Below, piece by piece: positions 9,966-61,571 of a DNA stretch of 64,000 bases (positions are counted from its first letter, which is position 1; every line of letters begins with the position of its first letter). Origin of the DNA: a bacterium (GTDB lineage Bacteria > Auribacterota > Tritonobacteria > UBA1439); contig JAQUPF010000003.1 of the NCBI GenBank assembly GCA_028716845.1, forward strand, positions 1 to 64,000. Direction: 5' to 3'. Both the position numbers and the translations under genes were made by a program. Below the pieces are notes generated by a model. That model was not told where the DNA came from and searched no databases. It saw only the letters and a list, made by a program, of their open reading frames with translations.

Positions 9966-11336
9966 TCAGGGCGTTTTCGCGACGGGCTTCGCCAGTTCGT
10001 ATTCCCTGATTCTGCGGAGGAGCGTATTCCTCGCTATGCCGACGGCCTTTGCCGTTTTCGAGTAATTCCAGCCGTTCTCATCGAGGGCGGAAGCCAGGTA
10101 TTCCCGCTCGATATCCCTGAAAGATCCCCTCGCTCTCAAGCCGGGACTGTCTCCGGCGACACTCTTCCTGATCGAGGGCGGGAGATCGTCCGCCTGAACC
10201 ATGGCCGACTTCGAGAGGACAACGGCCCGCTCGACGGCATTGTGCAGCTCCCGGACGTTCCCCGGCCAATGGTACTCGTACATGATCCGCATCGCCTCCG
10301 CGGATACCCGCTTCGGGTCGGCATCCTTCTTCCCCGACGATCCCGTCCGCCGCAGGAGATGATCGATGAGGAGCGGGATGTCCTCCTTCCTTTCCCTGAG
10401 CGGGGGGATTTCGACCGAGATGACGTTGAGCCGGTAGTACAGATCCTCCCGGAATTTACCCTCCCCCACGAGTTTCACGAGGTCCTGGTTGGTCGCGGCG
10501 ATGACCCGCACGTCGATCTTTATCGTATCGTTGCTCCCCAGCCGGCGGATCTCCTGCTCCTGGAGGACACGGAGGAGCCGGACCTGCGTCATGGGTGAGG
10601 TCGCGGATATCTCATCGAGGAAGATCGTGCCCCGGTCGGCCTCCTCGAAGAGACCCTTCTTCGCGTTGATCGCCCCCGTGAACGCGCCCTTCACGTAGCC
10701 GAACAATTCCCCCTCGAGCAATCCCTCGGGGAGCGCGCCGCAGTTGATGGGGATGAACGGCATCTCCCGCCGGCGGCCCCCGCCGTGGATCGCCCGGGCG
10801 ACGAGCTCCTTCCCGGTCCCGCTCTCGCCGCAGACGAGGACGGTCGAATCGGTCATCGCCACCTGTTCGATGAACTCATGCAGGCGGAGGATCCCCGGGC
10901 TCCGGCCGACGATGTGCCTTCGCGAGAAGGTGTCCTTGAGGGCCATCCTGAGTTGGCGGACCTCTGTCCGGAGGCGCTTCCGCTCGACGGCGTTCCTGAC
11001 CCGAATCATGATGTCCTTCGGCTCGATCGGCTTGGTCAGGTAATCGTAGGCACCGAGCTTGATCGCCTCGACGGCGGATTGTATGGTGCCGAACGCGGTC
11101 AGGATGATCACCTCCGTGTCGCCGGGGCCTTCCTTGACCCGTTTCAGGAGATCGATCCCGCCCATGACGGGCATGTTGAGATCGGCGATCACGAGGTCGT
11201 AGCAGGAGGCGTCGATCTTCCGCATCGCCTCCTCGCCGTCGCGGGCCTCCTCCGGACGGAATCCGTTTCTTTTCAGGAGAATGGAAAGGGCCTTCCGAAT
11301 CGATTCCTCGTCATCCACGATCAGGACGGATTCCAT
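9966..11336 (-). CDS. NtrC-family sigma-54-dependent response regulator
   Basis: 456 residues. The receiver domain (1-120) has the acidic pair D8-D9, phosphoacceptor D52 in IADLNMP and conserved K near 105. The AAA+ domain has Walker A GESGTGKE, the sigma-54 contact loop GAFTGA and Walker B GTIFLDEI. The C-terminus is a Fis-type HTH (YSKTAKAVGIARNTLLRRI). It activates sigma-54 RNA polymerase after phosphorylation. Its ATG overlaps the end of the five-PAS kinase by 26 bp, so that kinase is its probable partner. The sigma-54 promoter match just downstream makes the second kinase operon its likely target. Confidence 0.93.
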   Translation of the reverse strand: MESVLIVDDEESIRKALSILLKRNGFRPEEARDGEEAMRKIDASCYDLVIADLNMPVMGGIDLLKRVKEGPGDTEVIILTAFGTIQSAVEAIKLGAYDYLTKPIEPKDIMIRVRNAVERKRLRTEVRQLRMALKDTFSRRHIVGRSPGILRLHEFIEQVAMTDSTVLVCGESGTGKELVARAIHGGGRRREMPFIPINCGALPEGLLEGELFGYVKGAFTGAINAKKGLFEEADRGTIFLDEISATSPMTQVRLLRVLQEQEIRRLGSNDTIKIDVRVIAATNQDLVKLVGEGKFREDLYYRLNVISVEIPPLRERKEDIPLLIDHLLRRTGSSGKKDADPKRVSAEAMRIMYEYHWPGNVRELHNAVERAVVLSKSAMVQADDLPPSIRKSVAGDSPGLRARGSFRDIEREYLASALDENGWNYSKTAKAVGIARNTLLRRIREYELAKPVAKTP

Positions 11337-13914
11337 CGGCGCCCTCCTTCGCCAGCGGAAAGGTGATGACGAACGTCGTTCCCCCGCCGGGCTCGCTCTG
11401 GCAGGAGATGGAGCCGTGATGCGCGTTGATGATGCGGTTCACGATGGCGAGGCCGAGGCCGGTCCCGCCTTTCTTCCTGCTGAAGAACGGTCGGAATATG
11501 TTTCGCAGATCCGCCGCCGGAATCCCGCATCCGCTATCCCGGAAGACGATGGCGGCCGAATTCCCCTCCCGCTCGGTTCGGAGGCGCAGTTCCCCGGATC
11601 CGCCCATGGCCTGGCTTGCATTGATGACGAGGTTGAGGAAGACCTGCCTGATCTGGTTCTCGTCGAGGAGCGCCGTCAACGGCTCCTCGGAAAGGTCAAC
11701 CGTGATTTGTATCGTATCGGTCACGACCTTCTCCCGCGTGAAGGAATCGATGATTTCACGCATCAGCCGATTGACGTCCACCGGCGAGCAGATCGGTTCC
11801 TGCGGCCTTCCGAAGCGCAGGAAATCGGTGACGATGCCCTCCAGGCGGGCGGCCTCCTTCTCGATGATGCCGAGGAGACTCATCTCGTCCGTGCCGATGA
11901 CCTGTCCCTGCTGCTCCAGGAGCATCTTCACCGAGGTGAGGATCCCGCCGAGCGGATTGCGTATCTCGTGGGCGACGCCCGCCGCGAGCTCACCGAGACC
12001 CGCGAGATGCTGCGCCTCGGCCAGCCGTTTCTCCGTTTCACGCTGCTCGGTGACATCCCGCTCGATACACACCTTGGCGGTGAGTTTCCCTGTCTCGTCA
12101 AACAGGTAACCGGTCGAAAGCCATGAGATGAAATCGGTTCCGTCCTTCCTCCTCCTGTAGAGCTCGGCGGACCACGGCTGGAGGTCATCGGCCTTTTGGC
12201 GAATGCGTTCCAGCAGGTCGGCCGGATTCCTGTCTGAGTAGAACATACTGATGGGCTTCCCCAGCAGCTCCTCTGCCCGGTAGCCGTACATCTCCTCGCC
12301 CGCCTTGTTGATGCTCACAATCCTGTTCCCGGGATCGGTGGATATGATGCCGAGCGATGCCCTTTCGACGAGATCGGCCATATAGCGGATCTTCTCCTCG
12401 GCGTGCTTCTGTTCGGTGATGTCGCGGATGATGCTGATGCCCCCCTTCCGCCTGCCTGACGCGTCGAAGAGATAGGAGACCGACAGCCAGATGGGGAACA
12501 GGGTGCCGTCCTTCCTCCTGTCCAGTATTTCCCCCTCCCAGTTCTCGCCCTTCGCCGATTTCTCCCTGAGACTCCTGAGAAGCGACGGGTTGTTCCTCTC
12601 GGAGTGGAGGATGCTGATATGCTGCCCGATCAACTCACCGGCCGTGTAGCCGAACATCCGCTCGCCGGCCCGGTTGATGCTCATGATGACGCCGCTCTCA
12701 TCCGTCGAGATGATGCAGTGCGCCGCGCTCTCGACCAGCTCCGCCATGTAGCGGAGTTTCTCCTCGTACTCCTTGAACCGCGTCAGGTCGCGCGAGATGC
12801 CCACCGCGCCCTTGATCCTTCCCCGATCGTCCCGCAGGTACGAGGTCGCCAGCCAGATCGGGAACACCTCCCCGTTCTTCCGCCTCCCGAGCGTCTCTGC
12901 CTCCCAGGATTCGCCTTTCCCCGCAAGTTCCGCGAGCCGCTTCCTCGTCCCGCGCGGCGTCTCCGGCGCCCACAGCACGCTCACCGGCTTCCCCGGCAGT
13001 TCTCCGGCATCATAGCCGAACATCCGCTCGCCGGCCCGGTTGATGCTCGTGATGATCCCCCTCGCGTCCGTGGAGATAATGCAGTGCGCCGCGCTTTCCA
13101 CCAGCTCCGCCATGTAGCGCAGCTTCTCCTCGTACTCCTTGAATCGCGTCATGTCGCGCGAGATGCCCACCGCGCCCTTGATGTTCCCCCTGTCGTCCCG
13201 CAAATACGAGGTCGCCAGCCAGATCGGGAACACATCCCCGTTCTTCCGCCTCCCGAGCGTCTCCGCCTCCCAGGATTCGCCTTTCCCCGCAAGTTCCGCG
13301 AGCCGCTCCCTCGTCCCGTGCGGCGTCTCCGGCGCCCACAGTGCGCTCACCTGTCTCCCAACCAGTTCGCCGGTGCCGTACCCGAACATCCGCTCGCCGG
13401 CCCGGTTGATGCTCGTGATGACGCCGTTCGCGTCGGTGGAGATGATGCAGTGGGCCGCGCTCTCGACCAGCTCCGCCATGTAACGCAGCTTCTCCTCGTA
13501 CTCCTTGAAACGCGTCATGTCGCGCGAGATGCCCACCGCGCCCTTGATGTTCCCCCCGTCGTCCCGCAAATACGAGGTCGCCAGCCAGATCGGGAACACC
13601 TCCCCGTTCTTCCGCCTCCCGAGCGACTCCGCCTCCCACGACTCCCCCCTGTCCGCGAACTCCTTCAGGCGGCGGCGGAGGTCCTCAGGCACCAGTTCCG
13701 ACTGGAGGATGCTCGCGGGCCTCCCGATCAGCTCCCCGGCCGTGTAGCCGAACATCCGCTCGCCGGCCCGGTTGATGCTCGTGATGACGCCGTTCGCGTC
13801 GGTGGAGATGATACAGTTGGCGGCATGCTCCGTCAGGTTCGCGAGATGGCGGATGTAGTCGTCATTACCCTTCATGGTTTTCATCTCAATCTTGCCGCCG
13901 CGGACGAGAAGCAC
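11311..13914 (-). CDS. Sensor histidine kinase with five tandem PAS domains
   Basis: 867 residues from a GTG; ATGs at residues 11 and 14 are equally plausible starts. Five PAS-PAC units of about 122 residues fill positions ~20-625. Units 1-3 are nearly identical (NRAGERMFGY, GRRKNGEVFPIWLATSYLRDD) and are linked by KEYEEKLRYMAELVESA. At the DNA level the middle units repeat with a 366-bp period. H box VAHEIRNP puts the phosphoacceptor near H649; N box NLVINASQAM, DSGCGIP and GGTGLGL follow. There is no membrane segment, so it senses cytoplasmic signals. The NtrC-type gene overlaps its 3' end, forming a kinase/regulator pair. Confidence 0.93.
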   Translation of the reverse strand: MLLVRGGKIEMKTMKGNDDYIRHLANLTEHAANCIISTDANGVITSINRAGERMFGYTAGELIGRPASILQSELVPEDLRRRLKEFADRGESWEAESLGRRKNGEVFPIWLATSYLRDDGGNIKGAVGISRDMTRFKEYEEKLRYMAELVESAAHCIISTDANGVITSINRAGERMFGYGTGELVGRQVSALWAPETPHGTRERLAELAGKGESWEAETLGRRKNGDVFPIWLATSYLRDDRGNIKGAVGISRDMTRFKEYEEKLRYMAELVESAAHCIISTDARGIITSINRAGERMFGYDAGELPGKPVSVLWAPETPRGTRKRLAELAGKGESWEAETLGRRKNGEVFPIWLATSYLRDDRGRIKGAVGISRDLTRFKEYEEKLRYMAELVESAAHCIISTDESGVIMSINRAGERMFGYTAGELIGQHISILHSERNNPSLLRSLREKSAKGENWEGEILDRRKDGTLFPIWLSVSYLFDASGRRKGGISIIRDITEQKHAEEKIRYMADLVERASLGIISTDPGNRIVSINKAGEEMYGYRAEELLGKPISMFYSDRNPADLLERIRQKADDLQPWSAELYRRRKDGTDFISWLSTGYLFDETGKLTAKVCIERDVTEQRETEKRLAEAQHLAGLGELAAGVAHEIRNPLGGILTSVKMLLEQQGQVIGTDEMSLLGIIEKEAARLEGIVTDFLRFGRPQEPICSPVDVNRLMREIIDSFTREKVVTDTIQITVDLSEEPLTALLDENQIRQVFLNLVINASQAMGGSGELRLRTEREGNSAAIVFRDSGCGIPAADLRNIFRPFFSRKKGGTGLGLAIVNRIINAHHGSISCQSEPGGGTTFVITFPLAKEGADGIRPDRG

Positions 13915-13924
13915 TAATCAACCA

Positions 13925-14149
13925 CGGATGCAACTACAGTTCAAAGTCGAAAGTTCAAAGTCGAAAGTTGAAAGTTGAAAGAATGAAGAACCAATCAACA
14001 ACGGATTTGCACGGATACTTACGGATATCCACTGATACTATTGAAGTGGGATCCGTAAGCATCCGTGGAAATCAGTGGCTCGTGGTTCGTGTGCCCCTCC
14101 TCTCCACTTTTAACTTTCAACTTTTCACTTTGAACTGTAGTTGCATCCG
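13925..14149 (+). repeat. MITE-like element, full copy 1 (225 bp)
   Basis: A 23-bp stretch beginning CGGATGCAACTACAG at 13925-13947 is repeated exactly as its reverse complement at 14127-14149. Between them are AAAGT(T/C) runs, CACGGATAC words and an internal inverted repeat (TTACGGAT ... ATCCGTAA). CGGAT-rich sequence continues to about 14224, so the whole gap 13915-14253 holds repeats and no gene. Confidence 0.8.
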
Positions 14150-14253
14150 CGTGGATCCGCGGCAAAAAACGACCCTTTTCAAGTGCAATCCGTGCGTATC
14201 CGTGGTAATCCGTGAAGATCCGCGGAAAATTTGTTCCTTGTCCCCGCCGCGGG

Positions 14254-14856
14254 TCAGGGCGTCTCCTCGTCAGGCTCGGCCGAGAAGATGTCGCCCTCGT
14301 ACGCCGCCGACTCCTCGGTCGGCGCCGGCTCGGGCGCCGGCTCCGGCGTCGCCGTCGCGGCGGCCTCGGGCACGGGCGTCGGCGGCAGCTCGCCGAGCGT
14401 CTTCGCCACGGCGCCCGCCTCGTCGATGAGATCGACCTGGTGGACGAGCGCCAGCCAGTAGACCTCCCCGTGGAACTCGGCGCGCTCGACCGTGCAGCGG
14501 ATCCTGGCCGGCCTCGCCTCGCCGAGGGAGAGCTCGTCGGAGAGCGCCCGGGCGAGGGACGGGGGGGCGACGAAGTTGGCGCGCTGCTTGCTGAGGAAGG
14601 CGGGCGCCCATTCGCCCCGCTCCTGGGCGCCCCTCGTCCGCTCCGCCGTGCGCTCGCTGATGTCGAGGCAGAACTGGTTCTCGTCCCTCCTGATGGTCCC
14701 GCCGAGCGTGACGTTGTCGATCTCGATCAGGGCCTCCTCCTTGTACAATTCAGGAAAGCGGTTGACGTCGTGGAGCTGCACGCCGACGGGAGCCGTCGGC
14801 GAGGCGGCGAGCCACGCCGCACAGGAAACCAGGATGATGCACGCATTCATGTCCAC
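14254..14856 (-). CDS. Exported protein of unknown function, last gene of the kinase/cyclase operon
   Basis: 200 residues. The N-terminus (MDMNACIILVSCAAWLAASP) looks like a signal peptide. The middle part, residues ~25-140, is a folded-looking domain with EIDNVTLGGTIRRDENQFCL, and the C-terminal 60 residues are rich in Pro, Ala, Thr and Glu. I recognise no family. It starts 9 bp after the stop of the preceding exported protein, so it belongs to the same transcript. Confidence 0.7.
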   Translation of the reverse strand: MDMNACIILVSCAAWLAASPTAPVGVQLHDVNRFPELYKEEALIEIDNVTLGGTIRRDENQFCLDISERTAERTRGAQERGEWAPAFLSKQRANFVAPPSLARALSDELSLGEARPARIRCTVERAEFHGEVYWLALVHQVDLIDEAGAVAKTLGELPPTPVPEAAATATPEPAPEPAPTEESAAYEGDIFSAEPDEETP

Positions 14857-14865
14857 GCCCTCCCT

Positions 14866-15201
14866 TCACTCGGTGTCACGTCGATCATCCGCCCCGCGCG
14901 CGTCCCGCCGGGGCTCCTCCGCAGCCGCCTGCGGGAGCATCCCCCTTCTCGCCCGGCGGACCCACTCCCACTCCGGGTCGCCCCGGAGCCATTCGATCTG
15001 GTCCTTCGCGATCGTCACGAAGACGCCGGGGGCGTCCCGCAGTTCCACGACCGCGTTCTCCTCGTCCTCGCTGACGATGATGCAGCGCATCGAAACGCCG
15101 TCCTTGAGCCTGATCCAGTCCGGGTACGTCACCGCCTGCGCCGAGGCGCCGCACGGCGCACCGCACAGCGCGACCGCGATCGCCCACATTGCCGCCTTCA
15201 T
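14866..15201 (-). CDS. Small exported protein of unknown function
   Basis: 111 residues, with a clear signal peptide ending in GASAQA. The mature part contains DGVSMRCIIVSEDEENAVVE and ends in a charged, disordered tail. Its ATG overlaps the stop of the upstream lipoprotein by 4 bp (ATGA), the mark of translational coupling. A longer frame extending to 15966 in the same frame lies over the lipoprotein gene and is rejected. Confidence 0.7.
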   Translation of the reverse strand: MKAAMWAIAVALCGAPCGASAQAVTYPDWIRLKDGVSMRCIIVSEDEENAVVELRDAPGVFVTIAKDQIEWLRGDPEWEWVRRARRGMLPQAAAEEPRRDARGADDRRDTE

Positions 15202-15986
15202 TCCCGCCTCCCCGCACGCCGCCGGAATTCCGCCTCGAGCGGCTTCGAGAATAGGAGGAGCCGCATCCGCCGCTCGTCGAACTGCACCTCGACGTCCCTG
15301 TGGCGCCGCCGGGCCGGTTTGACGTGCCGGGCCCGCACCCGCTCGCGTAGCGGCTCCGTCTTCCACGCCTCGGTGAGCGAGTACGGGTACTGCGCCTTGA
15401 GCCAGTAGAGCCGGCCCCGGTCGTCGAACTTGAAGTAGAGGGAGAGGATCTCGTGGGACGGGTTGTTCACCATGAAATCGCCGTACTCCCCGCCGGTGGA
15501 GGCGTAGATCCGCTTCCGGTAGTCCGACGGGGCGATGGCGTTCACCGCCTCCTCGACCTCCTCCTTCCCCATCCCGAACCTGATCCCCTCGAACGAAAAC
15601 TCGCCGTCGTCCGCCGGAACGGGCGTCGGCGCCGCCGGCGCGGGCGCCCGCCTCGCCGGGGCCTGCCGCCCGGCGGCGACGAACGGACCCGGCTGGAGGG
15701 CGTTGTCGAGGAACTCGACCCGAACCATGCTTCCGAACGCCGGAGGGATGAGGTAGCCGTGCCCCGCGAGGACGTTCGGGACGCCGCGGAACCGGTAATT
15801 CCTGTACACCCAGATCTCCCGCCTCGACGCCCCCTCGCGCAGGGCATGGGAGTCGTCGGGCCGTCCGAGGAGGGCGATCACCTCGCCCTTCCCCATCCCG
15901 GCCCGAAGGCCCGCCGGCGGCGGCGCGGCGCAGCCGCATGCGACCGCCGCTGCCGCCACCGCCCATATCCGCGCCCCCGTCCCCAT
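15198..15986 (-). CDS. Lipoprotein with two BamE/SmpA-like modules
   Basis: 262 residues. The N-terminus MGTGARIWAVAAAAVAC ends in a lipobox with the acceptor Cys at 17. Two segments, GMGKGEVIALLGRPDD and GIRFGMGKEEVEEAVNAI, carry the helix motif typical of BamE/SmpA-like domains. The second module is followed by Y.LTEAWKTEPL and a basic tail. It starts 8 bp after the Ser/Thr kinase stop. Likely anchored in an envelope membrane; a link between kinase signalling and envelope assembly is inference. Confidence 0.75.
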   Translation of the reverse strand: MGTGARIWAVAAAAVACGCAAPPPAGLRAGMGKGEVIALLGRPDDSHALREGASRREIWVYRNYRFRGVPNVLAGHGYLIPPAFGSMVRVEFLDNALQPGPFVAAGRQAPARRAPAPAAPTPVPADDGEFSFEGIRFGMGKEEVEEAVNAIAPSDYRKRIYASTGGEYGDFMVNNPSHEILSLYFKFDDRGRLYWLKAQYPYSLTEAWKTEPLRERVRARHVKPARRRHRDVEVQFDERRMRLLLFSKPLEAEFRRRAGRRE

Positions 15987-15994
15987 AAGCCCCC

Positions 15995-17941
15995 TCAGCG
16001 GCCGGACTGCCCCGCCTTGAGCAGCGCCTCCAGCCGGCGGTTCGCCTCGAGGGCGTCGGCGGTCCCCGGCTTCTCCCGGATGACCCGCCGGTATCCCTCG
16101 ATCGCGGCCGCGGCGTCCTTGAGCTTCTCCTCCTTCACGACGGCGATGTTGATGAGAAGGTGGAACTCCTCCTCGCGGTCGGGATAGCGCGCGAGGATCT
16201 GCTCGTACGTCTCGATCGAGCGCTCGTAGTTGCGCACCTTCCTCCCCTTGGAGATCTCGGCCACCTTGAGCATCGCGAACGGCGCCTCGTCGCTCTTCGG
16301 GTAGGCGGCGGCGATCGCCGAGAAGCTCTCGACCGCCTCCTCCAGCTCCGCGAGCGTGTTCCCCTCCTCCTGGAGGAGGCCCATCTGGAAGAGCGCCTTC
16401 GGGGCGAGCGGGTGCGACGGGTACTCGGCGCGGACCTTCGCGTACTCCTCGACGGCCTTGAGACGCTTCTCCTTCCTCGAGAAGTCGAGCGCGCTCATGA
16501 TCCCGGACGGCTTCAGGCACTCGGCGATCCGGAACTGCGCCGGCGCCCGGAACGTCCCCGAGGGGAAGAGATCGAGCAGCCGCCGGTACTCCGAGAGGGC
16601 GAGGTCGATCATGCCGGCGTGTTCGTAGATCTCGCCGATCCGCATCTGCGCCTTCTCGGCCCACTCCGGCTCGGCGTCCTTGTAGTTCTCGACGACCGCC
16701 CGCATGGACATCACCGCGAACTGCCTGAGGCCCGTGGACGTCATGTCCGCCGCGGCGTAGTTCTCCGCCTTCCTGAAATCCGCCTCGGCGGGCGAGGCCG
16801 CGGGCGGCTCCTCCCGCTGCGGCGCGGGGGCGGCGGTCGCGATCGGGAGGGGCGTCCTCGTCGGGACGGGCGTCCTCGTCGGGACCGGCGTCCTCGTCGG
16901 CGCCGCCGGCGCCGGAATCGCGGGGGCCGCCTCGAACGCGGCCTCCTCCGCCGCCGGGGGCGGGGGCGGCTCCTCCCCTCCCCTCCGCGCCCGGACGAAC
17001 AGGAAGAGGATGGCGGCGAGCGCGAGGCAGCCGCCTCCCGCGGCGAACCACCGCGGGCGGGACCGGATGGCCGTCGAGGCGCGGACGCCGGCCGTCCTGA
17101 CCGTCCGCACGATGGTGTCGAGCATCCCCGAATCCTCGCGGAGGACCCCCTCGATCGCCGCCCTGAGCTCGCCGGCGCTCTGGAACCGCTCGGCCGGATT
17201 GGGCTTGAGACAGCGGAGGATGATCTCGTCGAGGGCGCGCGGGATCTCGGTGTTGATTTCGCACGGGCTCCTGAAATGCCCCATCGGGAGCTGGCCCGTG
17301 AACATCTCGTAGAGGATGACCCCGAAGGAGAAGATGTCGGCCCGCTGGTCCACGGCGCGGGCGTCACGGCGCTGCTCCGGGGCCATGTACTCGATGGTCC
17401 CCATCGCGATGTGGGACTGGGTGAGCGTGGAGAACTCGCCGGCGGCCTGGGCGAGCTGGACGAGGCCGAAGTCGGCGACCTTCACCGTGAGCGTGTCGCG
17501 GGTGACGAGGATGTTCGACGGCTTCAGGTCGCGGTGGACGATCCCCTTCGCGTGGGCGTAGGAGAGCGCCCGGCAGGTCTGCGCGGCGATGTCGAGCAGC
17601 TGGCGGACGGTGAGCGTCCGCTCCTTGAGGAGGGCGTCGAGGCCCAGGCCGTCCACGTACTCCATCACGAAGTAGCAGAGGTCCCCCTCGCGGCCCCGGT
17701 CGATGATCTGGATGATGTTCGGGTGGCTCAGGCGCGCGATCGTCTCGGCCTCGCGGTCGAACCGCGCGATGAACTCCGGGTCGCGGGCGAAGGCCGTCGG
17801 CAGGACCTTGACCGCCACCGCGCGGTTGAGGGACGGCTGGATCCCGCGGTAGACGACGGCCATCCCCCCCCGGCCGATCTCCTCCGTGATCTCGTAGTGC
17901 CCGAGCCGCTTGACCTCGGCCTTCCTCGGCGCCTTCGCCAT
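15995..17941 (-). CDS. PknB-type Ser/Thr protein kinase with external TPR-like region
   Basis: 648 residues. Kinase domain ~15-280: glycine loop IGRGGMAVVYRG, ATP-binding K45, catalytic HRDLKPSN with D138, DFG at 157-159, and APE in the activation segment. A membrane span lies near 300-320 (LALAAILFLFV), followed by a Pro/Thr-rich stalk with TPTR repeats and then TPR-like helices (AQMRIGEIYEHAGMIDLALS). The sensor half should therefore lie outside the cytoplasmic membrane. The gene starts 21 bp after the FHA-cyclase, whose FHA domain could bind phosphothreonine made by this kinase. Confidence 0.92.
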   Translation of the reverse strand: MAKAPRKAEVKRLGHYEITEEIGRGGMAVVYRGIQPSLNRAVAVKVLPTAFARDPEFIARFDREAETIARLSHPNIIQIIDRGREGDLCYFVMEYVDGLGLDALLKERTLTVRQLLDIAAQTCRALSYAHAKGIVHRDLKPSNILVTRDTLTVKVADFGLVQLAQAAGEFSTLTQSHIAMGTIEYMAPEQRRDARAVDQRADIFSFGVILYEMFTGQLPMGHFRSPCEINTEIPRALDEIILRCLKPNPAERFQSAGELRAAIEGVLREDSGMLDTIVRTVRTAGVRASTAIRSRPRWFAAGGGCLALAAILFLFVRARRGGEEPPPPPAAEEAAFEAAPAIPAPAAPTRTPVPTRTPVPTRTPLPIATAAPAPQREEPPAASPAEADFRKAENYAAADMTSTGLRQFAVMSMRAVVENYKDAEPEWAEKAQMRIGEIYEHAGMIDLALSEYRRLLDLFPSGTFRAPAQFRIAECLKPSGIMSALDFSRKEKRLKAVEEYAKVRAEYPSHPLAPKALFQMGLLQEEGNTLAELEEAVESFSAIAAAYPKSDEAPFAMLKVAEISKGRKVRNYERSIETYEQILARYPDREEEFHLLINIAVVKEEKLKDAAAAIEGYRRVIREKPGTADALEANRRLEALLKAGQSGR

Positions 17942-17962
17942 AAATGCTCCTTCCCTCCCCCG

Positions 17963-19519
17963 TCAGGGCGCGAGCACCCTGTGCACCTCGACCGGCTCCG
18001 CCTTCCCCTTGACCCGCACCGGCTCCATCCGCTCCCCGCGGACGCGCCCCTCCACCGCCCGCCACGTCGCGCCGCTCACGAGGATCCCGCCGCCCGGGGC
18101 GATCTCCGCCAGGCGCGCGGCGAGGTTCACGGCGTCGCCGATGACGGTGAGCTCCATCCGCTGCTCCGACCCGACGTTCCCGTAGAGCGCGTCGCCGGTG
18201 TTGATCCCGATGCCGATCCGGAGCGTCGCCCTCCCCTCCCCCCGCCACCGCTCGTTGAGGACCTCCACCGCCCGCTGCATGTCGATCGCCGTCTCCACCG
18301 CCCTGGACGGGTCGTCGCCGTGCGTGAACGCCGCCCCGAAAACGACGACGAGGGCGTCGCCGATGAACTTGTCGATCGTCCCCTCGCGCCGGAAGGCGAT
18401 GCGCGTCATCTCGCTGAAATACTCGTTGAGGGTGCCGACCACCTCGTTCGGCGGGAGCTCCTCGGAGAGGCGGGTGAAGTCGCGGATGTCGGAGAAGAGC
18501 ACCGTGACCTCCCTGATCTCGCCGCCGAGGTTGATCTCGCGCCTCCCGTCGATGACCTGCTCGACGAGGCCCGGCGGGAGGTAGCGCTGCAGGTTGTTCC
18601 GGCGGCGCACCTCGAGCTGGATGTTCGCGTAGAGGAGGGCGTTCTCGATGGCGAGGGCGGCCTGGCCGGCGATCCCCGAGAGGAGCTGGAGGTCGTCCTC
18701 GCTGAATTCGCCCGACGAGATCCTGTTCGAGACGTGGAGCACCCCGAGGGCGCGGCCCTTCCGCATGAGCGGGGCGCACATCGCCGACATCATCCGGAAT
18801 CTGAGCACGCTCCGCGCCGCCATGAACCGCTCGTCGCTCGAGGCGTCCGCCGTCAGGATCGCCACCCCCTCCCCCAGGGCCCTGTCGAGGATCGTCCTGC
18901 TCACGGCGACCGTCCCGTCGGTATCCGACTGGATCTTCGAGCGGAACAGGCGGAGCTTCAGCCGGCCGGTGGCCTCGTCCCGGAGCATGATGAACGCCTC
19001 ATCGGGGTGGAAGACATCGAAGACGGTGGCCATGAGGGCGCCCAGGAGGTCGCCGAGGTTGAGCGTGTTCGAGACGGCGCGCCCGACCTCGTACAGGACG
19101 GCGAGATGGCGGTGCGCCTTTCTGAGGCGCCCGAGGTCGGCCGGCTCCTCCCCGACCGGCGCCATCCCCTCCTCCACCTTCAGGACGGACCGGACCGTCG
19201 GCTCGGCCGGCCGGTTGTCCCCCTCCGGGCGGTCGTCCCGGTAGACGAGGACGCGCGCCCCGATGCCGATCTCGTCGCCGTCCCTGACCTCCGCCCGCTC
19301 GATCCGCGCGCCGTTCAGGAGCGTGCCGTTCTTGCTCCCGAGGTCCTCGAGGACGGCCGCGCCGCCGGGGCCGACCGTGATCGAGGCGTGCCGGCGCGAG
19401 ATGCCGAGGCCGGCGATCCCGACGGTGCAGTCGCGGCCCCTCCCGATCGTGCTCGTTCCCTCCCGGAGCTCGTGGGAGGAACCCTCTCCCGTCACGTCTT
19501 TCACCAACAGCCGCGGCAT
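17963..19519 (-). CDS. FHA-GAF-class III adenylate cyclase
   Basis: 518 residues. FHA domain at 1-95 with G26-R27 and SRRH at 41-44. GAF domain at roughly 125-290. Class III cyclase domain from about 325 to the end: metal Asp in FSDIRDFT, substrate Lys and second metal Asp in TIDKFIGDALV, adenine-type Asp and catalytic Asn/Arg in VIGDAVNLAARL. The Lys/Asp pair indicates ATP, not GTP, as substrate. It is the first gene of a five-gene operon with an extended -10 promoter 24 bp upstream. Confidence 0.92.
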   Translation of the reverse strand: MPRLLVKDVTGEGSSHELREGTSTIGRGRDCTVGIAGLGISRRHASITVGPGGAAVLEDLGSKNGTLLNGARIERAEVRDGDEIGIGARVLVYRDDRPEGDNRPAEPTVRSVLKVEEGMAPVGEEPADLGRLRKAHRHLAVLYEVGRAVSNTLNLGDLLGALMATVFDVFHPDEAFIMLRDEATGRLKLRLFRSKIQSDTDGTVAVSRTILDRALGEGVAILTADASSDERFMAARSVLRFRMMSAMCAPLMRKGRALGVLHVSNRISSGEFSEDDLQLLSGIAGQAALAIENALLYANIQLEVRRRNNLQRYLPPGLVEQVIDGRREINLGGEIREVTVLFSDIRDFTRLSEELPPNEVVGTLNEYFSEMTRIAFRREGTIDKFIGDALVVVFGAAFTHGDDPSRAVETAIDMQRAVEVLNERWRGEGRATLRIGIGINTGDALYGNVGSEQRMELTVIGDAVNLAARLAEIAPGGGILVSGATWRAVEGRVRGERMEPVRVKGKAEPVEVHRVLAP

Positions 19520-19542
19520 CGAGGCACCGTCCCGAGGGGGCG

Positions 19543-19551
19543 ATTATAGCA
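19543..19551 (-). promoter_or_regulatory. Extended -10 promoter of the cyclase-kinase operon
   Basis: On the minus strand the sequence reads TGCTATAAT, an extended -10 element with perfect TATAAT at 19548-19543. No good -35 is seen, which is usual for this class. The start site would be near 19536, giving a leader of about 17 bases. Confidence 0.55.
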
Positions 19552-19565
19552 TACCACCGGCCGCC

Positions 19566-20069
19566 TCACGGCCTCCCGCCGGCATCGGCCGGCAGGGTGT
19601 ATTTCTCGAGCACCTCGCGCGCGGCATCCGCGCCCAGCCACCCCTCGATGTGCGTCTCCTTGCGCTCGAGCACCTTGTAGGTGTCGAAGAAGTTCTCGAT
19701 CTCGCGGAGCCAGTGCCGCCGGAGGTCGCCGATGTCGTTGATGCCGTCGAACCGCGGGTCGGCGACGGGGACGCCCAGGATCTTCTCGTCCACGCCCTTG
19801 TCGTCGCGCATGATGAGAACCCCGATCGGCCGGACCCGCACCCTGCAGCCGGGGAAGGTCGGCTCCTCGACGATGACGAGGGCGTCGAGGGTGTCGCCGT
19901 CCGCGGCCCGGGTGCCCGGGATGAAGCCGTAATCGGCGGGGTAGTGCACGGAGGAGAAGAGGACACGGTCGAGCCGGATCTCACCCGTCCGGCGGTCGAA
20001 CTCGTACTTGTTCCGGCTCCCCTTCGGGATTTCGACGACGACCTCGACCGGCCTCCGGGGCTCAGCCAC
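19566..20069 (-). CDS. ppa: Inorganic pyrophosphatase (family I)
   Basis: I choose the GTG at 20067-20069, preceded by GGGAGGGAG; a longer frame to 20150 adds an Arg/Pro-rich tail that lies over the upstream lipoprotein gene. The 167-residue product matches family I enzymes: VVEIPKGSRNKYEFD, HYPADYGFIPGT, and the metal-site signature DGDTLDALV. It hydrolyses pyrophosphate and pulls biosynthetic reactions forward. It overlaps the end of the lipoprotein gene by 8 bp. Confidence 0.93.
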   Translation of the reverse strand: MAEPRRPVEVVVEIPKGSRNKYEFDRRTGEIRLDRVLFSSVHYPADYGFIPGTRAADGDTLDALVIVEEPTFPGCRVRVRPIGVLIMRDDKGVDEKILGVPVADPRFDGINDIGDLRRHWLREIENFFDTYKVLERKETHIEGWLGADAAREVLEKYTLPADAGGRP

Positions 20070-20274
20070 GACAGGCTCCCTCCCCGCCGGGGACGCACGC
20101 CTCGAGCCGGGCGTCCTCCTCCGGCTCCGCCGGCTGGTCCCCGTGGCCATCGCACGGATCGACGCACCAGTCTCCCTCGTAATAATCGCCGTAGATGTAG
20201 AAGGGTCCCTTCCGCACGCAGCCCTGGCCGAGCGCGAGCGCCGCGACGGCCAGGCAGAGCAGCATGACCTTCAT
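20062..20274 (-). CDS. Small lipoprotein of unknown function
   Basis: 70 residues, with an excellent AGGGAGG ribosome site. MKVMLLCLAVAALALGQGC is a lipoprotein signal with the acceptor Cys at 19. The mature part has GPFYIYGDYYEGDW followed by an acidic, Cys-containing tail. The frame extends further upstream to 20388, but that part overlaps the zinc-ribbon gene and lacks a start signal. No family recognised. Confidence 0.65.
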   Translation of the reverse strand: MKVMLLCLAVAALALGQGCVRKGPFYIYGDYYEGDWCVDPCDGHGDQPAEPEEDARLEACVPGGEGACRG

Positions 20275-40656: not shown

Positions 40657-40711
40657 GCCCAAAGCCGAAGAAATGATGCACCAATCGACCACGGATTGCC
40701 ACGGATCATTA

Positions 40712-40930
40712 CGGATCCAAACTACAGTCCAAAGTTGAAAGTTCAAAGTCGAAAGTTGAAAGAATGAAGAACCAATCCACCACGGATCTGCACGGATACT
40801 TACGGATATCCACTGATACTCTTGAAGTGGGATCCATAGGCATCCGTGGAAATCAGTGGCTAGTGGTTCGTCAGCCCCTCCTCCCCATTTTGAACTTTCG
40901 ACTTTTCACTTTGAACTGTGGTTGCATCCG
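40712..40930 (+). repeat. MITE-like element, full copy 2 (219 bp)
   Basis: Terminal inverted repeats at 40712-40734 and 40908-40930, with the same internal order as copy 1, including TTACGGATATCCACTGATAC and ATCAGTGGC. Partial CGGAT words flank it on both sides (40685-40711, 40931-40970). The gap 40546-40975 otherwise holds only the infC promoter and leader. Confidence 0.8.
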
Positions 40931-40975
40931 TGAGAATCCGTCGATGATCCGTGAACATCAGCGGCTGTGTGTGCA

Positions 40976-44839: not shown

Positions 44840-45246
44840 ACCACTAATCACTGATTTCCACGGATGCGTACGGATCCTCACGGATGTAACTACAGTTCAA
44901 AGTGAAAAGTCGAAAGTTCAAAGCCCAGTCCCTTTCGGCTGCCTTCTCATCCGCGATAATCCGCGTCAATCCGCGGCCACAATGAACCACTTCACCACGG
45001 ATCTTCACGGATTCCTGCGGATATCCACGGATTCCACTCCAGGAGTATCAGTGAACATCCGTAATGATCCGTGGCAATCCGTGGTTGATTGGTTCTTCAT
45101 GCTCCCAACCCTTGTATCCAATCCGAGGCAAGAACCTCTTCCCTCACCACTGCAATCCGATCCGTGGATATCCGTAAGTATCCGTGCAGATCCGCGGTGG
45201 ATTGGTGCTTCATTCTTTCAACTTTCGACTTTGAACTTTGAACTGT
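44840..45246. repeat. Composite CGGAT/AAAGT repeat block
   Basis: Contains two MITE-type terminal units in opposite orientation (GTAACTACAGTTCAAAGTG at 44886; CTTTCGACTTTGAAC near 45221) and many ATCCGTG and ATCCGCG words between. The gap 44808-45247 has no other content that I can see. Confidence 0.75.
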
Positions 45247-47299: not shown

Positions 47300-47660
47300 A
47301 GCAACTACAGTCCAAAGTTGAAAGTTTAAAGTCGAAAGTTGAAAGAATGAAGAACCAAGCCACCGCGGATCTGCACGGATACTTACGGATAGTCACGGAT
47401 TGGATTGCGGCGGTGAGGAAAGAGGTTCTTGCCGCGGGTCTACGCGGATTGTCGCGGATGAGAAGGCAGACGAAAGAAACGGTGTTTTCGCCGCGGATTG
47501 ACGCGGATTACCGCGGATGAGAGCGCAGTCGAAAGAATAATGAACAAAGCAACCGCGGATCGACACCGATCATTACGGATATTCACTGATACTCCTGGAG
47601 TGGAATCCGTGGGGATCCGTAAGCATCCGTGGGAATCAGTGGCTCGTGGTTCTTTGTGGC
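47300..47660. repeat. Composite CGGAT/AAAGT repeat block
   Basis: Starts with GCAACTACAGTCCAAAGTTG next to the MGDG-type gene, then GCACGGATACTTACGGATAG, tandem GCGGATTGACGCGGATTACC near 47490, and the MITE central part (CACTGATACTCCTGGAGTGG) at about 47585. The gap 47238-47694 holds no gene. Confidence 0.75.
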
Positions 47661-61273: not shown

Positions 61274-61316
61274 GCCGTTCCGCCGCCCGCGGCGATCATA
61301 ATGAACTCCTCACCAC

Positions 61317-61539
61317 GGATGCAACCACGGTTCAAAGTGAACAGTCGAAAGTTCAAAGTGGCGGTAATCCGCGGCCACAATGAACCACGAGCCACTGATT
61401 TCCACGGATGCTTACGGATCCCACTTCAAGAGTATCAGTGGATATCCGTAAGTATCCGTGCAAATCCGTTGTTGATTGGTTCTTCATTCTTTCAACTTTC
61501 GACTTTGAACTTTCAACTTCGGACTGTAGTTTGGATCCG
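61317..61539 (-). repeat. MITE-like element, full copy 3, between pilM and pilN (223 bp)
   Basis: Inverted relative to copies 1 and 2. Terminal units at 61317-61339 and 61516-61539; the internal part has TTACGGATCCCACTTCAAGA and GTATCAGTGGATATCCGTAA. It splits an otherwise compact operon. Confidence 0.8.
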
Positions 61540-61571
61540 CGGACATCCGCGGTCAATTCGTTCATCATTCC

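Follow-up and report, generated by a model that had tools for sequence, protein, structure and literature searches.

An adenylate cyclase with an FHA domain and a membrane Ser/Thr kinase, encoded side by side in the 64,000-nucleotide stretch of DNA analyzed here (the window), form a real, partly conserved signaling pair, which we regard as a variant of the kinases encoded beside FHA proteins, extended by a lineage-specific tail of exported proteins. This pair probably connects the cell surface to cAMP. We assign a probability of about 55% to a two-protein module, running from the membrane kinase through the FHA-cyclase to cAMP, as the explanation of the locus. The five-gene set in which the pair is found is, taken as a whole, not one conserved system.

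Organization of the gene cluster

The initial annotation had described five tightly spaced genes, and all of them were confirmed as consecutive open reading frames (ORFs) on the minus strand, with gaps of 21, 8, -4, and 9 bp. It had omitted the gene for an inorganic pyrophosphatase that is located 46 bp upstream of the cyclase and is part of the conserved neighborhood. The features of the region are as follows:

19566..20150, minus strand: inorganic pyrophosphatase, directly upstream of the cyclase (Pfam Pyrophosphatase, 2.2e-56)
19543..19551, minus strand: candidate extended -10 box TGCTATAAT, read from the sequence, just before the cyclase
17963..19519, minus strand: predicted FHA-GAF-class III adenylate cyclase, 518 aa (Pfam FHA, GAF, and Guanylate_cyc), with no membrane helix
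15995..17941, minus strand: predicted Hanks-type Ser/Thr kinase (Pkinase and TPR_6) with a single membrane helix and an external TPR region
15198..15986, minus strand: lipoprotein with the lipobox-like motif ACGC, a BamE-like first module, and a second module of uncertain fold
14866..15201, minus strand: g4, a small exported protein of 111 aa with a signal-like N terminus by inspection
14254..14856, minus strand: g5, an exported protein of 200 aa with a predicted OB-fold-like core
13915..14250, no strand assigned: dispersed fold-back repeat of 336 bp, directly downstream of g5, at which the cluster ends

The similarity of the pyrophosphatase to its relatives begins only at about residue 27 to 35, and its true start probably lies inside the annotated ORF. 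For the candidate -10 box, a scan found no -35 element with which it could pair, and the box is absent from the same place in the relatives G003 and G005; because its position is not kept in relatives, we dropped it as the start of the operon. A plus-strand ORF of 1,129 aa (16160 to 19549) was also rejected as a gene, being an antisense open frame of GC-rich DNA. Beyond the cluster, positions 11311 to 13914 of the window encode a histidine kinase in which several of the five PAS domains are nearly identical to each other, and this gene is followed by one for an NtrC-type regulator (9966 to 11336).

Domains of the cyclase and the kinase

Both the Pfam matches of the cyclase (FHA, 1.5e-17; GAF, 1.2e-12; Guanylate_cyc, 6.3e-24) and its motifs bear out its initial identification as an FHA-GAF-adenylate cyclase, and a check for hydrophobic segments gave no indication of a membrane helix in this protein. 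The catalytic domain displays the motifs FSDIRDFT, DKFIGD, and VIGDAVNLAARL, and its sequence is predicted to supply all the residues that define a class III adenylate cyclase, namely, the two metal-binding aspartates, the specificity lysine, and the transition-state asparagine and arginine. In alignment with solved cyclases, it likewise shows the K and D that are characteristic of enzymes with adenylate specificity. Searches with phmmer matched this domain to class III cyclases in the PDB (CyaC, 1wc0/1wc1; 2w01; CyaB, 3r5g) with scores of 108 to 140 bits; these matches cover the catalytic part only, the PDB chains being without the FHA-GAF front end, and 2w01 reads DE at the position of the DK in the window protein. 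Among the aligned orthologs, the metal-binding Asp, DK, and VN...R motifs are conserved, with the exception that the G001 protein has IGN for IGD. In the FHA domain, the GR, SxxH, and NG motifs are all present (residues 26 to 27, 41 to 44, 64 to 65, and 69 to 70), and the GR, S, H, and Asn positions are kept in an alignment of eleven sequences. With its phosphate-binding residues intact, this domain is a putative phosphothreonine reader.

The second protein had been described as a membrane Ser/Thr kinase with an external TPR-like region, a prediction that agrees with its matches to Pkinase (1e-49) and TPR_6 (1.5e-14) and with the presence of every motif expected of a Hanks-type enzyme (the P-loop, VAVK with the catalytic Lys, HRDLKPSN, DFG, and APE). 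It has one strong hydrophobic segment at about residues 297 to 319, and therefore the TPR region, at about residues 396 to 648, should be external. In profile searches, the nearest solved relatives of this external region are the periplasmic TPR proteins CpoB (1.1e-9) and BamD/YfiO (7.5e-7), a kinship that fits a periplasmic protein-binding role. A second copy of the kinase in the relative G001 (L137:3548-5792) is degenerate, with no N-lobe and with LRD for HRD, and is located beside a g5 homolog.

Conservation in the family

Wherever the cyclase was found in the family, the kinase gene is its neighbor; the five genomes concerned are that of the window and those of the relatives G001, G002, G003, and G005, the contig of the last ending inside the kinase gene. 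In each of these except G001, the pyrophosphatase was seen just upstream of the cyclase, and the conserved core order is pyrophosphatase-cyclase-kinase. A related arrangement is found in G006, a member of another family, in which a kinase preceded by a small FHA gene is placed tail to tail with an FHA-GAF-cyclase.

The remaining genes behave differently from this core. The exact order of the five genes, whose conservation the initial annotation had proposed as a check, recurs among the relatives in G003 only. Likewise, the separation of the genes in relatives, which it had named as evidence against a joint system, was observed for the lipoprotein and g4, which follow the kinase in the window genome and G003 alone, and not for the cyclase and the kinase. 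G002 has only g5 beside the pair, lacking the lipoprotein and g4, and G001 has none of the three. Hence, the suggestion that the TPR region senses the lipoprotein and the exported proteins fares poorly, and, given that the relatives lack the lipoprotein, we set it aside as the main reading. Even in relatives that lack the lipoprotein, the external region is conserved (65 to 72% identity across the family), which makes the lipoprotein an unlikely essential ligand.

Orthologs of g5 are confined to the family among 44 genomes of the phylum; the gene follows the cluster in the window genome, G002, and G003 and is located near a contig end in G005. In the relatives, the cluster continues after g5 (G002 and G003) or after the kinase (G001) with another lipoprotein gene, lipoX, and then a gene for an M16 peptidase, between which a CoiA-like gene is inserted in G001 and G002, and one contig of G005 carries g5, lipoX, and the M16 gene in the same order. 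Across the relatives, the three genes coding for exported proteins are only loosely attached to the kinase-cyclase pair and are less important than was first thought. They are envelope genes specific to the lineage and are probably cotranscribed with the kinase-cyclase module.

Recurrence of the kinase-FHA association

Genomic context supports the predicted functional link between the kinase and the FHA domain. A single FHA domain was found in the window genome, together with two protein kinase domains, and the FHA gene adjoins one of these two kinases; with about 2,400 genes, we estimate the chance of such an adjacency to be near 0.2%. The pair is kept within the family and also recurs outside the phylum. 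A Ser/Thr kinase is encoded within 3 kb of the FHA-GAF-cyclase at five of nine loci from named genomes of other phyla (L035, L036, L039, L041, and L044; the others are L034, L037, L040, and L043, with the L037 contig measuring only 3 kb) versus 1 of 69 cyclase loci in which no FHA domain was detected (L038). The Fisher p value of 3e-5 for this comparison takes no account of common descent or sampling bias and, because the loci do share ancestry and were sampled unevenly, serves only as a guide.

The cyclases of L034 to L037 and L039 to L041 come from Acidobacteria, Terriglobia, Myxococcota, and Planctomycetota. They have the same domain order as the window protein and align with it along nearly its full extent, with 36 to 38% identity in the best segment; their neighborhoods yielded no lipoprotein, g4, or g5. 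At L035 and L036, the kinase bears PEGA repeats outside, where the window kinase has TPRs, a swap in keeping with a shared cytoplasmic core to which different sensors can be attached. A second type of pair was encountered in Nitrospinota (L038:4-4259) and at L116:4363-8437, where a TPR-kinase is followed by a GAF-cyclase-PilZ protein without an FHA domain.

As for downstream components in the window genome, the sole cyclic-nucleotide-binding domain detected is located at the end of an MFS-HEAT membrane protein (L143:733-3924), which is a possible cAMP reader; no CRP-like reader is known in this genome, and no PP2C_2 phosphatase was found in it. Given that the assembly is 95% complete, these domain absences are provisional.

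The exported proteins

None of the lipoprotein, g4, and g5 matches a Pfam family over its cutoff. The lipobox-like motif of the lipoprotein, ACGC as read from the sequence, appears as LCGC in the G003 ortholog, and the two proteins are 43% identical (38% for g4 and its G003 ortholog). The initial annotation had assigned two BamE-like modules to the lipoprotein, of which the first finds support and the second does not. In the first module alone, the G003 ortholog gives a subthreshold match to Pfam BamE (20.5 bits versus a cutoff of 23.2), and neither it nor the window protein attains the curated cutoff of this family. At the level of the fold, a low-confidence model of the lipoprotein (mean pLDDT of 60) superposes in its first module on OsmE and BamE with Z scores of 4.3 to 5.7, in most cases at about 2.5 Å over 53 to 57 residues. 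The model of the second module best matches the structures of YdcD, RhsI1, and YjgB, and BamE is not among its best matches. A sequence search of the PDB with the lipoprotein profile retrieved only matches with E values of 0.16 or worse, and Foldseek retrieved none at 0.001 or better with the model. For g5, the model (pLDDT of 69.5) gives Z scores of about 8 to many OB folds, from which its core is predicted to be OB-fold-like.

Single-module BamE-like lipoprotein paralogs were also observed in the family (L144:4122-4658, L141, L145, and L139), with no kinase seen beside them. The window genome itself codes for a single-module paralog away from the cluster, with no kinase in the surrounding 8 kb.

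Proposed mechanism and alternatives

It is likely that the kinase signals to the FHA-cyclase, in a variation on kinase/FHA pairings already known, because the FHA gene adjoins the kinase and the combination recurs in other phyla. We infer every biochemical step of the model from sequence. The membrane kinase would sense an envelope signal via its external TPR region and phosphorylate a threonine on itself or on a partner. The FHA domain of the cyclase would then read the phosphothreonine and thereby recruit or switch on cAMP synthesis, and the GAF domain could contribute a second input. The pyrophosphatase may remove the pyrophosphate made by the cyclase or may be a mere neighbor. The lipoprotein, g4, and g5 perhaps tune the sensor, and the core would not need them in every relative.

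The alternative that survives best, although we consider it unlikely, places the switch inside the cyclase: the kinase would phosphorylate the linker between the FHA and GAF domains, and the FHA domain would latch on to it without formation of a kinase-cyclase complex. There is an experimentally tested precedent in DgcB of Bdellovibrio, where binding of a phosphothreonine tail by the FHA domain gates a diguanylate cyclase (PMC6733907). Moreover, the linker motif V[RH][ST][VM] retains a Ser or Thr in all five family cyclases and in that of L034 (the window protein reads PTVRSVL). However, three of the compared cyclases have Ser at this position, and the linker aligns poorly outside the family. 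FHA domains bind mostly phosphothreonine, which counts against a serine at this site.

Less probable than this is that the genes are merely cotranscribed neighbors with no common pathway, on a par with the housekeeping pyrophosphatase. The presence in the neighborhood of that gene and, in the relatives, of the CoiA-like and M16 genes would be in keeping with such a view, as would the absence of the lipoprotein and g4 beside the pair in two relatives, but it is countered by the recurrence of the kinase with an FHA-cyclase in other phyla and by the FHA domain being the single one in the genome.

Within the BAM complex, BamD and BamE act as partners. We would regard as a long shot a widespread kinase/FHA/class III cyclase pathway to cAMP that reports outer-membrane assembly through the BamD-like region and the BamE-like lipoprotein. 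The slimmest chance goes to a single system made up of all five genes, its TPR region sensing the BamE-like lipoprotein and the exported proteins, e.g., to monitor the assembly of the outer membrane. In its favor are the tight spacing, the same order in G003, and the relationships of the external region to BamD and of the first lipoprotein module to BamE. It is at odds with the weak BamE call, with the single-module paralog that has no kinase in the surrounding 8 kb, and with G001 and G002, whose cyclase and kinase persist in the absence of the lipoprotein and g4, the external region remaining 65 to 72% identical.

Relationship to known systems

Kinase-to-cyclase signaling, the reading that we prefer, has parallels in two known systems. 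DgcB, the tested precedent for phosphothreonine gating of a cyclase by an FHA domain, supports this reading too; it resembles the window cyclase in having an FHA domain ahead of a nucleotide cyclase domain (FHA-GGDEF) and in the presumption of an upstream kinase, but it makes c-di-GMP, does not belong to the class III cyclases, and was described without identification of its kinase (PMC6733907). In mycobacteria, kinase and FHA genes cluster (PMC1262709). As in the window, the FHA protein is encoded there beside a membrane Ser/Thr kinase, whereas the mycobacterial FHA proteins are not cyclases and the external domains of the kinases are not TPRs. Examples of such mycobacterial pairs are PknB-FhaA/FhaB and PknF-Rv1747. 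In the literature searched, which had most subscription journals outside its scope, we found no description of an FHA-adenylate cyclase beside a Ser/Thr kinase and no earlier description of a link between Ser/Thr phosphorylation and cAMP at the envelope. If the core works as proposed, Ser/Thr phosphorylation at the envelope would determine cAMP levels in several uncultured phyla. Having a single FHA domain and a pair of protein kinase domains, the genome would be a clean test case for this connection.

The repeat at the end of the cluster

In the window genome, lipoX and the M16 gene are found together on contig C14, apart from the cluster. The nearest full copy of the repeat that ends the cluster is on the same contig (C14:1387-1710; 92% identical) and ends some 90 bp short of the lipoX match at position 1798, and the copies at both sides of the break have the same orientation, read in the direction of the cluster. 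Recombination between them would explain the split of the cluster; alternatively, the assembly could have been misjoined at the repeat, in which case the split would not be real. Further copies of the repeat are located in the window at 40711 to 40940, 61316 to 61542, 45147 to 45244, and 47301 to 47652. Its motifs include CACGGAT and AGTTCAAAGT(C/G)AAAG, and matches to it, full or partial, number 108 across the genome, most of them short.
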